Source: Bifidobacterium asteroides
GTDB taxonomy: Bacteria > Actinomycetota > Actinomycetes > Actinomycetales > Bifidobacteriaceae
Direction: 5' to 3'
Assembly (NCBI RefSeq): GCF_003202695.1
Contig: NZ_QGLL01000008.1
Location: 124,001 to 188,000, forward strand
Length of the DNA stretch: 64,000 nt
Shown one piece after another: positions 37,893-43,384 of this stretch (position 1 is its first letter; every line of letters starts with the position of its first letter). Both the position numbers and the translations under genes were made by a program. The notes under the pieces are model-generated. The model did not search any database, had not been told where the DNA came from, and was given only the letters and a program-made list of their open reading frames with translations.

Positions 37893-39368
37893 TCAGTCCT
37901 GGACGCGGGCGAATCCACCCACTGCCCAGGCTAGTCGATCCCGAAGATCGGGGTCCACTGCGAATAGCCCCAATCCGTGCACCCCTCGTTTAAGCAGCAC
38001 ATTGAACTCGTGCCGAAGATTATCCACAGGATTCATCTCCAGCTCCGGCCGTTGATTAGTCGCCAATGTGTTGCAACTGAGCTTCGGGTCGAATTCGATC
38101 TTTCCATTCCTATAAGTGACTGAGGGCCCGATAATGACCCCTGCGTAGTTGAGGTCAAAACCTTGGATGGTAAAGATAGAGCCCACCTCATCAATGGTGA
38201 AGGGCAACTCGGCCCAAGCGATCCGGTGATTTGCAGCGGAGTTTCCCTGCGCCTCATAGAGTTCGTAATTCCAGGGCATGGCGAATTCACCATCCCCTTC
38301 CTGACCCTCTTCGACCCATACCCACCGGCCTGAATCCTCTTGGCGCAGTACAACCTGCCAGTGACGGGAAGGATCCCGTGGGTCCGGGTGATTCCTGCTG
38401 CTGTAAGGCCAGTCATAGGTGGCTAGAAGTCGGCAGAGGCCCAAGGAGCCCTCGCTCCTTTGCTCTTGGTCCTTTCGACGAATGAACTTTCTCAAATCCT
38501 TTGGCGAATCAAAAACCTTGATCTCGTAAGGATGCTCCCAGGGATCCGGATGCAGTGGACCAATGACGCCATCCTTGGCCGTCACCCGATCCAGCCAGGC
38601 GCATGTTGCAGGATCAGCCTGAATGCGCATCTGTTGATCCAAACGAATATGACTAACCTGGAAAGTATCCTCACGTACATGCTGACCGTCCCGTGACTTT
38701 TCGCGGATGAGCATGGGTTGCGAGAAGGTCTGGTCATGTTCAGAACCCGTCAACCCCAGAAACCGACTTTCCTGGGCATCCACGAACTGGGATCCTCGCA
38801 AGATCTGTTCTGGGTCGAAGACTACAATGGCTACTTTTGCCCGCCGCAAAATGTCGTAGAGCTGGTTGCTCCCTGAGTAGCTCTGTGACCCTTGTGTCAG
38901 CAGCAGATGCGCCTCGTCAATCAGCACCACATCCGCCTGAGCGTCGACGCTATTCATGGGGTCCGCTGCTCTGCCTGTGGACCGACCATTTTGATTGGTG
39001 TGCTTGCTGAAACGGTTGATGAACTGGACAGCCCCCACCACGCACTGACCGCGTTTCTTTTGCAATCCCAGCTTCAGAGCCATCTGGTTGTAGACATTAG
39101 CCTGCTCGGCCTGGTTGACAATGATGTAGGAACGCTGCCTGGCCTTTGACGAACGGTTATCATCCTTGCCGTTCAAATTTCCGTAGATGCCGTATCTGGC
39201 ACATATTTGATAGAAGAGATGGCTGAGCAAAACGGTCTTGCCAGTCCCTGATATGCCCTGAACGACAATGACCTGCGTAAGGGCATCTTCAATCTGCACC
39301 GGCCCCGTCGACTCCGTCATCGAGTGGAAACCCTCGCTAGGGTTTTGAACTATCACCGACTCCAGCAC
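37893..39368 (-). CDS. DUF2075 / Schlafen-type P-loop helicase domain (C-terminal part of a split gene)
   Basis: About 491 residues. Walker A is VVQGISGTGKTVLLSH, Walker B is DVVLIDEAHLLL, then FDPEQIL, LDQQMRI and VGSIFTIQGFDLNYAGVIIG, the helicase-like motifs of DUF2075 proteins, relatives of Schlafen helicase domains. A GTG at 39368 can be read as a start, but the frame stays open upstream to about 39420 with FRKLTDEQRRAEEAVLHVLE, which is the natural continuation of the GIY-YIG frame in another register. So this is very likely the second half of one GIY-YIG/DUF2075 protein separated by a one-base deletion. Target and role are unknown; a divergent MazG-like gene lies at 40110. Confidence 0.8.
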   Translation of the reverse strand: MLESVIVQNPSEGFHSMTESTGPVQIEDALTQVIVVQGISGTGKTVLLSHLFYQICARYGIYGNLNGKDDNRSSKARQRSYIIVNQAEQANVYNQMALKLGLQKKRGQCVVGAVQFINRFSKHTNQNGRSTGRAADPMNSVDAQADVVLIDEAHLLLTQGSQSYSGSNQLYDILRRAKVAIVVFDPEQILRGSQFVDAQESRFLGLTGSEHDQTFSQPMLIREKSRDGQHVREDTFQVSHIRLDQQMRIQADPATCAWLDRVTAKDGVIGPLHPDPWEHPYEIKVFDSPKDLRKFIRRKDQEQRSEGSLGLCRLLATYDWPYSSRNHPDPRDPSRHWQVVLRQEDSGRWVWVEEGQEGDGEFAMPWNYELYEAQGNSAANHRIAWAELPFTIDEVGSIFTIQGFDLNYAGVIIGPSVTYRNGKIEFDPKLSCNTLATNQRPELEMNPVDNLRHEFNVLLKRGVHGLGLFAVDPDLRDRLAWAVGGFARVQD

Positions 39369-40042
39369 ATGCAGAACAGCCTCTTCAGCCCGCCGCTGTT
39401 CGTCAGTGAGCTTGCGGAAGGCGAGGCTTTGAACAGGGCAGAGTCCAGGATCGCCTTCTCTTCCGGAAACAGATCGGGCTCCATCTGGTGCAGAGTCTGC
39501 CAGGCCTTGGAAAAGATGCTGTCGAATTCATCGCTAGTGTAGTACATGTCCTGAGCGTTGGTTCTACGGTTCATAACCAGCTTGACCGAGTCGACGCTCT
39601 GCATATACCCCATCAACCGATTTTCCATATCCAGTGTCAGAGATTTATTGAAGTGACGATCACCGATGATGTACTGGCAGACCCTGTCATGATTATTGCG
39701 CATGAACCGCACCAGGCGTTCCCAATCCGTCCGGGTCCGTGGATCCAACTCAATATGCTGCCTGGTTCGAGAACGAATGTCGTTAGTTTCCCCGACGTAA
39801 ACCACATAAGGAGACCCACCGCCATGCTTTTTGCCGCTGTCCCTTATATCAGCAGAGACAATGTATACAGTGGGATAGCGCAGGAACAGCTCCTCAAGCA
39901 GCCTCTCCTCCAAATTGCTGCCCTGACTGCCAACAGCTTCTCTCTGCTTGTACTCTGCAATGGCTTTGGAAAAATCTTCATCCCTGGAGTCGCCATAGGG
40001 CAAAGTCATCACCACAGGCTGCGGCGCGCTTGATGAATCCAT
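39353..40042 (-). CDS. GIY-YIG nuclease-like domain (N-terminal part of a split gene)
   Basis: 229 residues from the ATG at 40042. A GIY-YIG fold is seen at about residues 55-160: TVYIVSADIRDS, then YVVYVGETNDIRSRTRQH with the catalytic arginine region, and a metal-binding glutamate in LTLDMENRLMGYM. The reading runs DSALFKASP and then shifts into serine-rich nonsense and a stop at 39353; one extra T after CCT would give FRKLTDEQ and join the helicase frame. Intact relatives carry GIY-YIG and DUF2075 in a single chain. The start is uncertain, since MTLPYGDSRDEDF (ATG near 40009) is an alternative. Confidence 0.75.
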   Translation of the reverse strand: MDSSSAPQPVVMTLPYGDSRDEDFSKAIAEYKQREAVGSQGSNLEERLLEELFLRYPTVYIVSADIRDSGKKHGGGSPYVVYVGETNDIRSRTRQHIELDPRTRTDWERLVRFMRNNHDRVCQYIIGDRHFNKSLTLDMENRLMGYMQSVDSVKLVMNRRTNAQDMYYTSDEFDSIFSKAWQTLHQMEPDLFPEEKAILDSALFKASPSASSLTNSGGLKRLFCMCWSR

Positions 40043-40109
40043 GGTTTTCACTATGCCACGAACCCACACCAATCTCATGGCAGGCGGGCCGACTGGTAGG
40101 CTCGAAACC

Positions 40110-40442
40110 ATGATCAGCGAGGAAACAGAAGCAGCGGTGATGGATTTTGTGCATGAGCGCGACTGGGATCAATTCCACACGCCCGCCAACCTGGCCAAAT
40201 CCATCTGCATCGAAGCTGCAGAACTCTTGGAATGCTATCAGTGGGGAGATGATCCTAGGGACGGTGATGAGGACCACGTGACTGACGAGCTGGCGGACGT
40301 GCTTACCTATTGCATCCAGCTAGCGGATCGGCTGGATCTGGACATGGACAGCATTGTCATGGACAAACTGCAAAGGACGGCCCACAGGTATCCAGTGGCT
40401 GCTTCGCGCGGTTCCAGCCGAAAATATCGGCCCCTGCAGTAG
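40110..40442 (+). CDS. MazG-like nucleotide pyrophosphohydrolase
   Basis: 110 residues of the all-alpha NTP pyrophosphohydrolase fold. The two metal-binding motifs are clear: EAAELLECYQW (ExxE) and DELADVLTYC (ExxD), preceded by NLAKSICI. Length fits the small single-domain group (RS21-C6/YpjD-like), which cut dNTPs or modified nucleotides to monophosphates. The start ATG at 40110 has only a weak ribosome site; an ATG at 40077 would add 11 residues. It is divergent, with a 67-base gap, from the GIY-YIG/DUF2075 gene, so the two probably share control. Confidence 0.85.
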   Translation: MISEETEAAVMDFVHERDWDQFHTPANLAKSICIEAAELLECYQWGDDPRDGDEDHVTDELADVLTYCIQLADRLDLDMDSIVMDKLQRTAHRYPVAASRGSSRKYRPLQ

Positions 40443-41293: not shown

Positions 41294-43384
41294 TCATTCG
41301 GCGTTACCGAAGACCTGGTTGCGCAGCTCATTGCGCTGGGTCTCGTATTGGGTGAGCTGACCGAGAAGATCGAACTTCTCCTGCCCATCTGGCAACTGAT
41401 TCATCCGGTGCCGAGCAGAAGCAATCAGCCGCATGTAAGTGGCATCCAGCAGTCTTGCCAGCAGCTCTGAAGCATACTGACGCTCCTCCGGGCTGGGCTG
41501 TCTCAGCTGAGCGTCCGCTTCCTGGGAGCCCGACACCTGATCGTCTCCCCTGTTGACGACCATGGAGCCCGAGCCTGCCCCCTTCTGCCCATACTCCTGT
41601 GTATCCGAGTTCAAGGGCAGGGGCATGACGGCCAGCTCGTTGATGGCCGACTCCAACATGGGCCCGGCTGCCTTGGTCAGATTATGCATCCACAGTCCCT
41701 GGGGCGTCTTGCTGTCGGGAAGACCTCCGGTCGCCTGCACAGCCCGATAGAGGGAACGGAAAATCGGGACCTCAAAACTATCCGGACTGAGCTGGGCAAA
41801 AGCATTCGATCCGACCGCACCGGGAATCTGGATGAGTACACCCATGAACTGCTGCTCGCAGATAAATACGGCATCATCGATGCGATGGTATCCCTGTCGG
41901 AGAGCATCCTCACGCTGTATCCTGCGGCGTCGCATAGCATCGTCACTGCCGTAGCCTGCGCGCCCCTCCGATTCGCTCGAACCGCGGCGAGGAGTACGGA
42001 TCGCATAGGCATCCCGGTCCTTCACATGCAGCTTGTGGCGGGCCTTGTTAACCTCCTGGCGCAGAAGATCCAGATCCACGCCGATTTGCCTGGCAGTCTT
42101 GCGGGTGTAGGCCCCCACCAGGGAGCGGTCCCTAATCTGGGCCAAAATGGGCGCCACAGCTTTGACCGCCCCCATCTGCCCGGTGGTGTACTGAGTGTCA
42201 AACATGGCCACGGCGGTGTCGATGACGAAGTCATACAGCGGTCGGGCATGCTCGACCAGGGATCGCACCGCCTCATCGCCGTAGCGGATTCGCAGATCGC
42301 AGGGATCCAGATTCTCCCGAGCCACCGCCACGAAAGTCTGCGTCAGAAAGCTCCCGTCAAGGCCGAAGGCATGCAGGGCGGCCTTCTGCCCGGCGGCATC
42401 ACCGTCGAAGGTGAAGACCACCCTGGAACCCTGGACCGGCCCTACCAGTTGGATAGCCCCCAGGGCGTCGTCAGAGATGAGACGGCGGACGATCTTGGCA
42501 TGGTCCTCGCCAAATGCAGTGCCGCAAGTGGCTACTGCCGTGTCGACGCCGGCAAGGTGACATGCCATGACGTCGGTATAGCCCTCCACAATAACCACCT
42601 GCCGCTTTTTGACGATGGCCTCCTTGGCCAGGTCGATGCCGTAGAGCACCTGATTCTTGCGGTAAAGCTGAGTGTCCGGCGTGTTGATGTACTTGGCATT
42701 GATGCCGTCGTCCTCGTAGAGCTTGCGAGCGCCGAAACCCAGGGTGCGGCCTGTGGAATCCCTGATAGGCCAAGTGACCCTGCCCCGGAAGTAGTCGTAG
42801 ACTCCCCGTTGCCCCTGCCTGGCCAGTCCGGCATCCAGCATCTCCTGCTGGGTGAAGCCCTTGTCGGACAGGTGGCGGACCAGGTTATCCCATCCGCGAG
42901 GGGCGTATCCGCAGCCAAAATGGGCGCTGTCAGCCTGCGAGAAGGTCCTGCCGGCCAACAATTTGCGCGCAGCCAGCGCCTCCTTGCTCATAATCTGCGA
43001 AACGAAGAAGCGCTGGGCCTCCTCATTGGCCTCCAGCAGCCGGGAACGTTTGGACCCATGGCGCTGGTCCTGACGGGAATTTTCGTAATGCAGCTCGATC
43101 TGGTACTTGTCTGCCAGGATCTCGACGGCATCGCCGAATTCGACATTCTCCTCCCGCTCCACATAAGTGAAGACATCGCCGCCCAGACCGCAGCCGAAGC
43201 AGTGCCAGACACCCAAGGAGGGACGCACTGAAAAGGAAGGGGTCTTCTCGTCGTGAAAGGGGCACAGACCCATGTAGGTGCCGGAACCGGAAGGCTTCAG
43301 GGTCACGCTTTCAGATACGATCTCATACAGATCGGCCTTGGCTCTGACCTTCTCGATGTCTTCCTTCTTGATCATTCCGGACAT
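41294..43384 (-). CDS. dnaG: DNA primase DnaG
   Basis: 696 residues; makes RNA primers for replication. It has an N-terminal CHC2 zinc finger (CPFHDEKTPSF and VWHCFGCG), a RNA polymerase domain with the TOPRIM motifs VIVEGYTDVMACHLAG and VFTFDGDAAG, and a C-terminal helicase-interacting region with glutamine- and arginine-rich linkers. Length is normal for Actinobacteria. It is followed by the HAD gene and preceded by dgt on the same strand, 57 bases away. Confidence 0.96.
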   Translation of the reverse strand: MSGMIKKEDIEKVRAKADLYEIVSESVTLKPSGSGTYMGLCPFHDEKTPSFSVRPSLGVWHCFGCGLGGDVFTYVEREENVEFGDAVEILADKYQIELHYENSRQDQRHGSKRSRLLEANEEAQRFFVSQIMSKEALAARKLLAGRTFSQADSAHFGCGYAPRGWDNLVRHLSDKGFTQQEMLDAGLARQGQRGVYDYFRGRVTWPIRDSTGRTLGFGARKLYEDDGINAKYINTPDTQLYRKNQVLYGIDLAKEAIVKKRQVVIVEGYTDVMACHLAGVDTAVATCGTAFGEDHAKIVRRLISDDALGAIQLVGPVQGSRVVFTFDGDAAGQKAALHAFGLDGSFLTQTFVAVARENLDPCDLRIRYGDEAVRSLVEHARPLYDFVIDTAVAMFDTQYTTGQMGAVKAVAPILAQIRDRSLVGAYTRKTARQIGVDLDLLRQEVNKARHKLHVKDRDAYAIRTPRRGSSESEGRAGYGSDDAMRRRRIQREDALRQGYHRIDDAVFICEQQFMGVLIQIPGAVGSNAFAQLSPDSFEVPIFRSLYRAVQATGGLPDSKTPQGLWMHNLTKAAGPMLESAINELAVMPLPLNSDTQEYGQKGAGSGSMVVNRGDDQVSGSQEADAQLRQPSPEERQYASELLARLLDATYMRLIASARHRMNQLPDGQEKFDLLGQLTQYETQRNELRNQVFGNAE

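Follow-up and report, generated by a model that had tools for sequence, protein, structure and literature searches.

The combination of a nuclease with a helicase is familiar from Nhi, Hna and AbpAB, for which a response to phage single-stranded DNA-binding protein or to replication complexes has been reported or proposed (PMC10732053), and a GIY-YIG nuclease acts in defence in CMoRE (PD-T4-3), a type IV restriction enzyme that cuts DNA containing 5-hydroxymethylcytosine (5hmC) (PMC12923530). PF09848 (DUF2075), the family of Schlafen group 3 (SLFN-g3) helicases, is listed among abortive infection Pfam families (PMC10121019), and the MazG domain is a predicted, unvalidated defence domain according to DefensePredictor (PMC13092281), in whose main text neither DUF2075 nor Schlafen is mentioned. 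DCTPP1 (RS21-C6) hydrolyses deoxycytidine triphosphate (dCTP) and 5-modified dCTPs, preferring them as substrates (PMC4491611). Here we describe a locus in 64,000 nucleotides of Bifidobacterium asteroides DNA (contig NZ_QGLL01000008.1, positions 124,001 to 188,000; this whole stretch is the window, and coordinates below refer to it), where a gene joining a GIY-YIG nuclease to an SLFN-g3 helicase lies beside a divergent gene for a MazG-like, DCTPP1-type pyrophosphohydrolase, hereafter the partner. The pair is a real, recurring two-gene module, set among defence genes at some of its loci, and a role in antiphage defence is rather probable. The system is probably undescribed so far; no account of a DUF2075 and MazG pair was found in the literature searched, the coverage of which was partial and does not establish absence from print.

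The features of the locus are as follows.

40110 to 40442, plus strand: MazG-like, DCTPP1-type all-alpha nucleoside triphosphate pyrophosphohydrolase gene; its open reading frame (ORF) opens at 40041, and it is recognised by PF12643, a PDB match and the ExxE/ExxD motif.
39419 to 40042, minus strand: GIY-YIG nuclease part (N-terminal) of the nuclease-helicase gene; its ORF opens at 40111 and ends at 39353, and residues 1-231 align to intact relatives of 742-746 amino acids (aa).
37893 to 39368, minus strand: SLFN-g3 (DUF2075) superfamily 1 (SF1) helicase part, with Walker A and B motifs; PF09848 E-value 7e-73, 89-92% identity in nine close relatives.
39400 to 39435, minus strand: single frame disruption, roughly placed; two frames here versus one open frame in 9/9 relatives, and one gap versus the DNA of the relative L032.
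40043 to 40109, no strand: divergent intergenic stretch of 67 bases, read from the sequence.

The original prediction, made from the letters alone, had placed an ExxE/ExxD MazG-like gene and a nuclease-plus-P-loop gene 67 bases apart on opposite strands, and this arrangement holds, with the MazG-like gene probably starting at the ATG at 40110, where the orthologous ORFs L011 and L013 begin, and the nuclease-helicase gene at the likely start 40042. A consensus promoter scan returned one site, fewer than in shuffles, and found no sigma-70-like site in the 67-base intergenic stretch. The GC content of the pair is 54%, versus 59% for the window.

The least biased figures on recurrence come from a draw of 396 genomes from the phylum, the helicase and partner counts being taken as one draw (same size and handles). 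The helicase was found in 30 genomes, the partner in 37, both in 23, and the two side by side in 18. Co-occurrence of helicase and partner is far from chance (Fisher p 8.5e-22, kinship ignored). In five of the genomes with both, the two genes are apart, namely in G223 and, from family f21, in the large genomes G275, G285, G296 and G481; seven helicase genomes gave no partner match. Closer to the window, the helicase fragment was searched for in 119 related genomes and matched in 36. All nine close relatives with an intact helicase also have the divergent partner, which adjoins the helicase in five further Bifidobacteriaceae genomes (L012, L013, L014, L016 and L020), in the last of which it is co-directional and overlaps the helicase by 14 bases; three other helicase genomes of this family lack it (L015, L017 and L018).

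When a partner profile was run over 66 loci, 65 of which contain a helicase, 35 held a partner, all within 3 kb of the helicase (L057 and L128 among these are close relatives of the window). The same profile was used to search 14 whole genomes. Each of the eight genomes with both genes gave one match, adjoining the helicase, all three genomes with an unpaired helicase gave none, and the three helicase-less genomes gave one intact orphan, one broken copy and nothing, respectively. Outside the phylum, the pair was present on plasmids from L. plantarum, from L. salivarius, from Priestia and from the archaeon Halalkalicoccus, and in a faecal record labelled phage. These are the five loci that hold a partner by profile (L090, L092, L096, L099 and L100) in the plasmid and phage sample, for which 12 of 33 matches were opened; four of the six IMG/VR helicase loci among the matches listed hold one too. 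Recurrence across genera, which the original prediction had proposed as a check, is thus observed from the phylum draw to an archaeal plasmid. An accidental pairing, which it had named as the outcome that would speak against it, did not appear; it was rejected because both genes are constrained and the pair recurs across lineages.

The nuclease attached to the helicase is exchangeable. A second helicase class carries an N-terminal PD-(D/E)XK-like domain instead of GIY-YIG, with the same partner, and profile comparison indicates that the two nucleases are unrelated (probability 0.4%). Among 76 helicase ORFs in 73 loci, a non-random sample in which genomic loci were hand-chosen from helicase matches and supplemented with the 12 opened plasmid and phage loci, a partner accompanies 21/31 ORFs of the GIY-YIG class, 19/40 of the PD-like class and none of five short forms (280-410 aa); one locus, L127, has a second, PD-class helicase 847 bases from a partner already counted. 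The pairs come in three layouts (divergent, partner upstream and partner downstream), with close and often overlapping spacing, and so helicase and partner remain together across changes of nuclease type and layout. Two other arrangements were seen. Helicase-only forms of ~400 aa (L131, L132, L133 and L094) have neither N-terminal nuclease nor partner, and tandem SLFN-g3 helicases without an adjacent MazG-like gene (L115, L117 and L098) possibly represent a different, two-helicase arrangement.

The helicase of the window belongs to the Schlafen type, as originally predicted: its fragment matches the whole SLFN-g3 helicase domain of PF09848 (profile positions 2-354 of 354, 246 bits, cut-off 24), and the Walker residues K296, D403 and E404 are present in 11/11 aligned relatives. 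The other domain names given at that stage also stood, the partner passing the cut-offs of PF12643 and PF03819 and the GIY-YIG assignment depending on motifs and relatives, since the GIY-YIG part of the window has no Pfam match. In L032 numbering, the GIY-YIG residues Y108, G110, R118, H122 and E166 are found in 11/11 aligned relatives, and a Y...YxG, R, H motif in 30/31 helicase ORFs of the class. Against PF01541 (GIY-YIG), L090 scores 27.4 and passes the cut-off of 22.6, and L032 falls below it at 16.5. No Schlafen/AlbA-type RNase core domain was found in the window fragments or in the 25 of 26 Pfam families listed for 11 intact relatives.

Motifs also define the second class. An ELKQW-type motif is typical of PD-(D/E)XK nucleases. 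In the 40 PD-class ORFs, labelled by profile, an ELK-type motif occurs in 39 and HPxxQxxxY in 34, and ELKQW is present in all 19 that are paired. A ten-member alignment has HPxxQxxxY in 10/10 and the spaced form R.D..ELKQW in 8/10; its members were picked by ELKQW itself, which is therefore no test there. The PD-(D/E)XK-like assignment rests on these motifs because Pfam gave nothing above cut-off on eight PD-class N-termini, with one sub-threshold NERD match, in L100. For a structural model of a PD-class member (mean predicted local distance difference test score, pLDDT, 79), the best fold matches by E-value were RecD2, DSH9, SLFN11 and Dna2, with low whole-chain template modelling scores (0.27-0.34 on the query), a result in keeping with an SF1 helicase whose domains are arranged differently. 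AlphaFold modelled an intact 743-aa relative poorly (mean pLDDT 55.7), and the fold matches of that model were set aside. A PDB sequence search with the helicase alignment found nothing at an E-value of 0.01.

The partner scores 60.5 bits against PF12643 (cut-off 27) and 22.9 bits against PF03819 (cut-off 22). Its predicted metal site, ExxE/ExxD, consists of E58/E61 and E83/D86 and is kept in 38/38 distinct partner proteins. The best PDB matches of the window partner are to DCTPP1/RS21-C6 (E-value 2.4e-18), and in a search with the family profile 4qgp, an entry named only as a pyrophosphatase, scores slightly better. The docked pocket of DCTPP1 comprises His38, Trp47, Glu63, Glu66, Trp73, Glu95, Asp98 and Tyr102 (PMC4491611), and Asn125 is said to discriminate deoxyribose (PMC2954211). 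Seven of the eight pocket residues are kept in the window partner by the PDB-match alignment, with Val33 at the place of His38; among the 38 distinct partners, the equivalents of Trp47, Trp73 and Tyr102 occur in 38, 36 and 35, respectively, and the aligned C-terminal stretch RYPV...SRGSxxKY is a further likeness. The partners nevertheless differ from a dCTPase proper, as defined by His38, Trp47, Trp73 and Tyr102, in missing His38, and from DCTPP1 in being gene-paired with a helicase. The partner is likely a pyrophosphohydrolase and dCTP a hypothetical substrate, because seven of eight pocket residues are kept but His38 is gone and the position of Asn125 varies.

In this genome the nuclease-helicase gene is disrupted, as had been predicted. 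It exists as two fragments, 39353-40111 with the GIY-YIG part and 37893-39368 with the helicase part, both of which are spanned by one open frame of 742-746 aa in 9/9 close relatives. Alignment of the window with L032 DNA gave one gap in the helicase-gene stretch, and the frameshift lies near 39.42 kb. A contig scan seeded with the helicase found the helicase fragment at 90-92% match in seven close relatives (B. choladohabitans, B. sp. 7101, B. asteroides, B. apousia, B. polysaccharolyticum, B. mellis and B. mizhiense). Measured against seven relatives, the ratio of nonsynonymous to synonymous substitution rates (dN/dS) is 0.07-0.17 for the MazG-like gene and 0.09-0.14 for the two helicase fragments. 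The frameshift is a recent event or a sequencing error, because both fragments are constrained like intact copies (dN/dS about 0.1), and the earlier suggestion that the copy may be decaying was rejected on this ground. Since the gene is frameshifted, the copy in this genome probably either is inactive or yields its product in two pieces.

In the asteroides group the pair occupies one site, flanked by a nucleoside hydrolase gene and a HAD gene and next to dnaG and dgt, as inspected in 7/7 of the relatives named above. The dnaG gene of the window contains a 33-base repeat in about two copies (41896-41960). Three group members have no helicase. In G025, the slot (L178:7392-10379) holds a D12 adenine methylase, a 445-aa DUF6996/6997/7226 protein, possibly a restriction enzyme, and an N6/N4 methylase, together a putative restriction-modification cluster; its methylases and DUF6996/6997/7226 protein point to the slot as a site of defence exchange. 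In G003 (L177), two PfkB kinases, an Fe-alcohol dehydrogenase and a PRAI-like gene replace the helicase, and G020 (L179) has ORFs like these, judged by eye, with a frame-broken partner (L179:8391-8776).

Elsewhere, the pair recurrently lies with known defence genes at part of its loci. Two paired plasmid loci adjoin type I restriction-modification genes. In 20 paired genomes searched with models that a neighbour scan had listed, three defence genes each stand close to the pair in a single genome: a full-length PglW at a distance of 0.3 kb, a type IV restriction enzyme at 0.8 kb and the Wadjet gene JetB at 1.6 kb. The neighbour scan itself covered 19 pair loci and 19 control regions, out of 20 of each, with control places picked by hand, and at an E-value of 1e-15 or below 142 PADLOC models were matched by 114 neighbour ORFs versus 8 by 112 control ORFs, of which the direction alone counts because the 142 models are correlated and include generic kinase matches. 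Matches to PD-T4-6 near the pairs were disregarded, as one such model matches 20/20 genomes. Among unpaired plasmid loci, one adjoins type III-A CRISPR genes and one an AspBHI-like restriction gene; the former is on an L. fermentum plasmid (L089:5061-10898), where a GIY-YIG helicase without partner stands directly before cas6 and cas10/csm1, with a 250-aa protein without assigned function upstream.

How the locus compares with the described systems can be stated domain by domain. It resembles the SLFN-g3 family in its helicase and differs in the fusion to a GIY-YIG or PD-(D/E)XK-like nuclease, with no Schlafen RNase Pfam match. With Nhi, Hna and AbpAB it shares the nuclease and helicase logic, but AbpAB consists of two other proteins, and the text on these systems in PMC10732053, as available, mentions no MazG-like partner. 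CMoRE differs in acting as one component that senses modification through a C-terminal domain of its own, no helicase being mentioned in the available text of PMC12923530. Among 26 paired helicases, PADLOC models matched at an E-value of 0.001 or below were PDC-S41 in 22 (best E-value 1.1e-21), PDC-S14 in 16 (5e-11), AbiO in 23 (2.3e-15) and Nhi in 22 (5.7e-14), and where extents are listed these matches are partial, PDC-S14 covering the GIY-YIG part and AbiO and Nhi short P-loop stretches. On the window helicase, the Nhi model covers only positions 194-225 of 470, around Walker A, and the AbiO model positions 191-216 of 468, so that neither is a full-length match. The partner matched no PADLOC model at an E-value of 0.01.

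We favour, with some confidence, the reading that the pair is a two-gene antiphage defence module. It builds on the gene architecture, intact catalytic motifs, conserved pairing, nuclease exchange and the defence genes beside some pairs; phage as target, the trigger, the substrate and the cooperation of the two proteins are read from anatomy and homology, and so is the mechanism first suggested, in which foreign nucleic acid would be sensed and then either nicked or met by nucleotide depletion. The first gene would supply a nuclease, GIY-YIG here and PD-(D/E)XK-like elsewhere, fused to an SLFN-g3 SF1 helicase, and the second a DCTPP1-like nucleoside triphosphate pyrophosphohydrolase. By analogy with the proposals for Nhi, Hna and AbpAB, the helicase may engage DNA structures or protein-DNA complexes of phage replication, ATP turnover would let the nuclease cut the replicating phage DNA, and the pyrophosphohydrolase would lower the nucleotide or deoxynucleotide pool, possibly of dCTP or 5-modified dCTP, so that resynthesis is blocked.

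Several observations weigh against this reading. The neighbours in the window are housekeeping genes (nucleoside hydrolase, HAD and dnaG by Pfam; dgt and OsmC named by eye), although this site holds the putative restriction-modification cluster in G025; the original idea of a defence module is supported, with neighbours of the expected kind at part of the loci. The PglW model matches 20/20 genomes, full length in one, and the PADLOC count is too high, with PD-T4-6 accounting for 13 of the 25 listed models and two proteins matching each of these 13. In the 396-genome draw, 12/30 helicase genomes have no adjacent partner and 14/37 partner genomes no helicase; 7/12 of the opened plasmid and phage matches, including the type III-A CRISPR and AspBHI-like loci, have no partner, and only 3/35 viral partner relatives adjoin such a helicase. 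Up to 30/71 full-length helicases are unpaired, an upper bound because for six of them a sequence end is no more than 1 kb away; one of these (L121) has a partner piece. An intact orphan partner stands without helicase in G003 (L177:10533-10922). Finally, the cytosine-contacting His38 is found in 0/38 distinct partners, where mostly hydrophobic residues take its place, and the Asn125 position holds Asn in 20, Thr in 12, including the window, Ser in 4 and Ala in 2.

The unpaired helicases and the orphan of G003 would also be expected if the partner were a housekeeping or damage-limiting hydrolase, the nuclease-helicase the sole effector, and their co-location a matter of shared defence islands. 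This is unlikely given the close, often overlapping spacing in three layouts, and given that the only partner match stands beside the helicase in 8/8 paired genomes and is missing in 3/3 genomes with an unpaired helicase.

A module for DNA repair or recombination, processing stalled forks and adjusting deoxynucleotides rather than acting on phage, would suit the modelled likeness to RecD2, Dna2 and SLFN11 and the site next to dnaG and dgt in the asteroides group. We consider it improbable, since the helicase is patchily present (30/396 genomes) and carried on plasmids, its nuclease is exchanged and some loci have defence neighbours, all of which is unusual in genes for repair. About as improbable is restriction of modified cytosine, in which the nuclease-helicase would attack modified DNA and the partner remove modified dCTP to protect the cell rather than to starve the phage: the preference of DCTPP1 (PMC4491611), the cutting of 5hmC DNA by a GIY-YIG protein (PMC12923530) and the largely kept equivalents of W47, W73 and Y102 speak for it, but His38 is lost throughout, no modification-reader domain is among the Pfam families listed for the 11 relatives (25 of 26), the orphan persists in L177 and many full-length helicases have no partner.

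The broadest form of the favoured defence reading, in which a widespread bacterial and archaeal immune system answers one trigger by cutting phage DNA, with interchangeable nucleases, and removing the cytosine nucleotides, perhaps modified ones, on which its resynthesis depends, is tentative and may well not hold. If phage protection is true, a nuclease-helicase system with a nucleotide-hydrolase partner would join the known arsenal. The pair would also serve as a system in which to ask why enzymes of the MazG type keep occurring near defence genes and what SLFN-g3 helicases sense, and a clean natural experiment is provided by the exchange of two unrelated nucleases while helicase and partner stay the same. 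Human relatives exist for both halves, the SLFN11-type helicase and DCTPP1.

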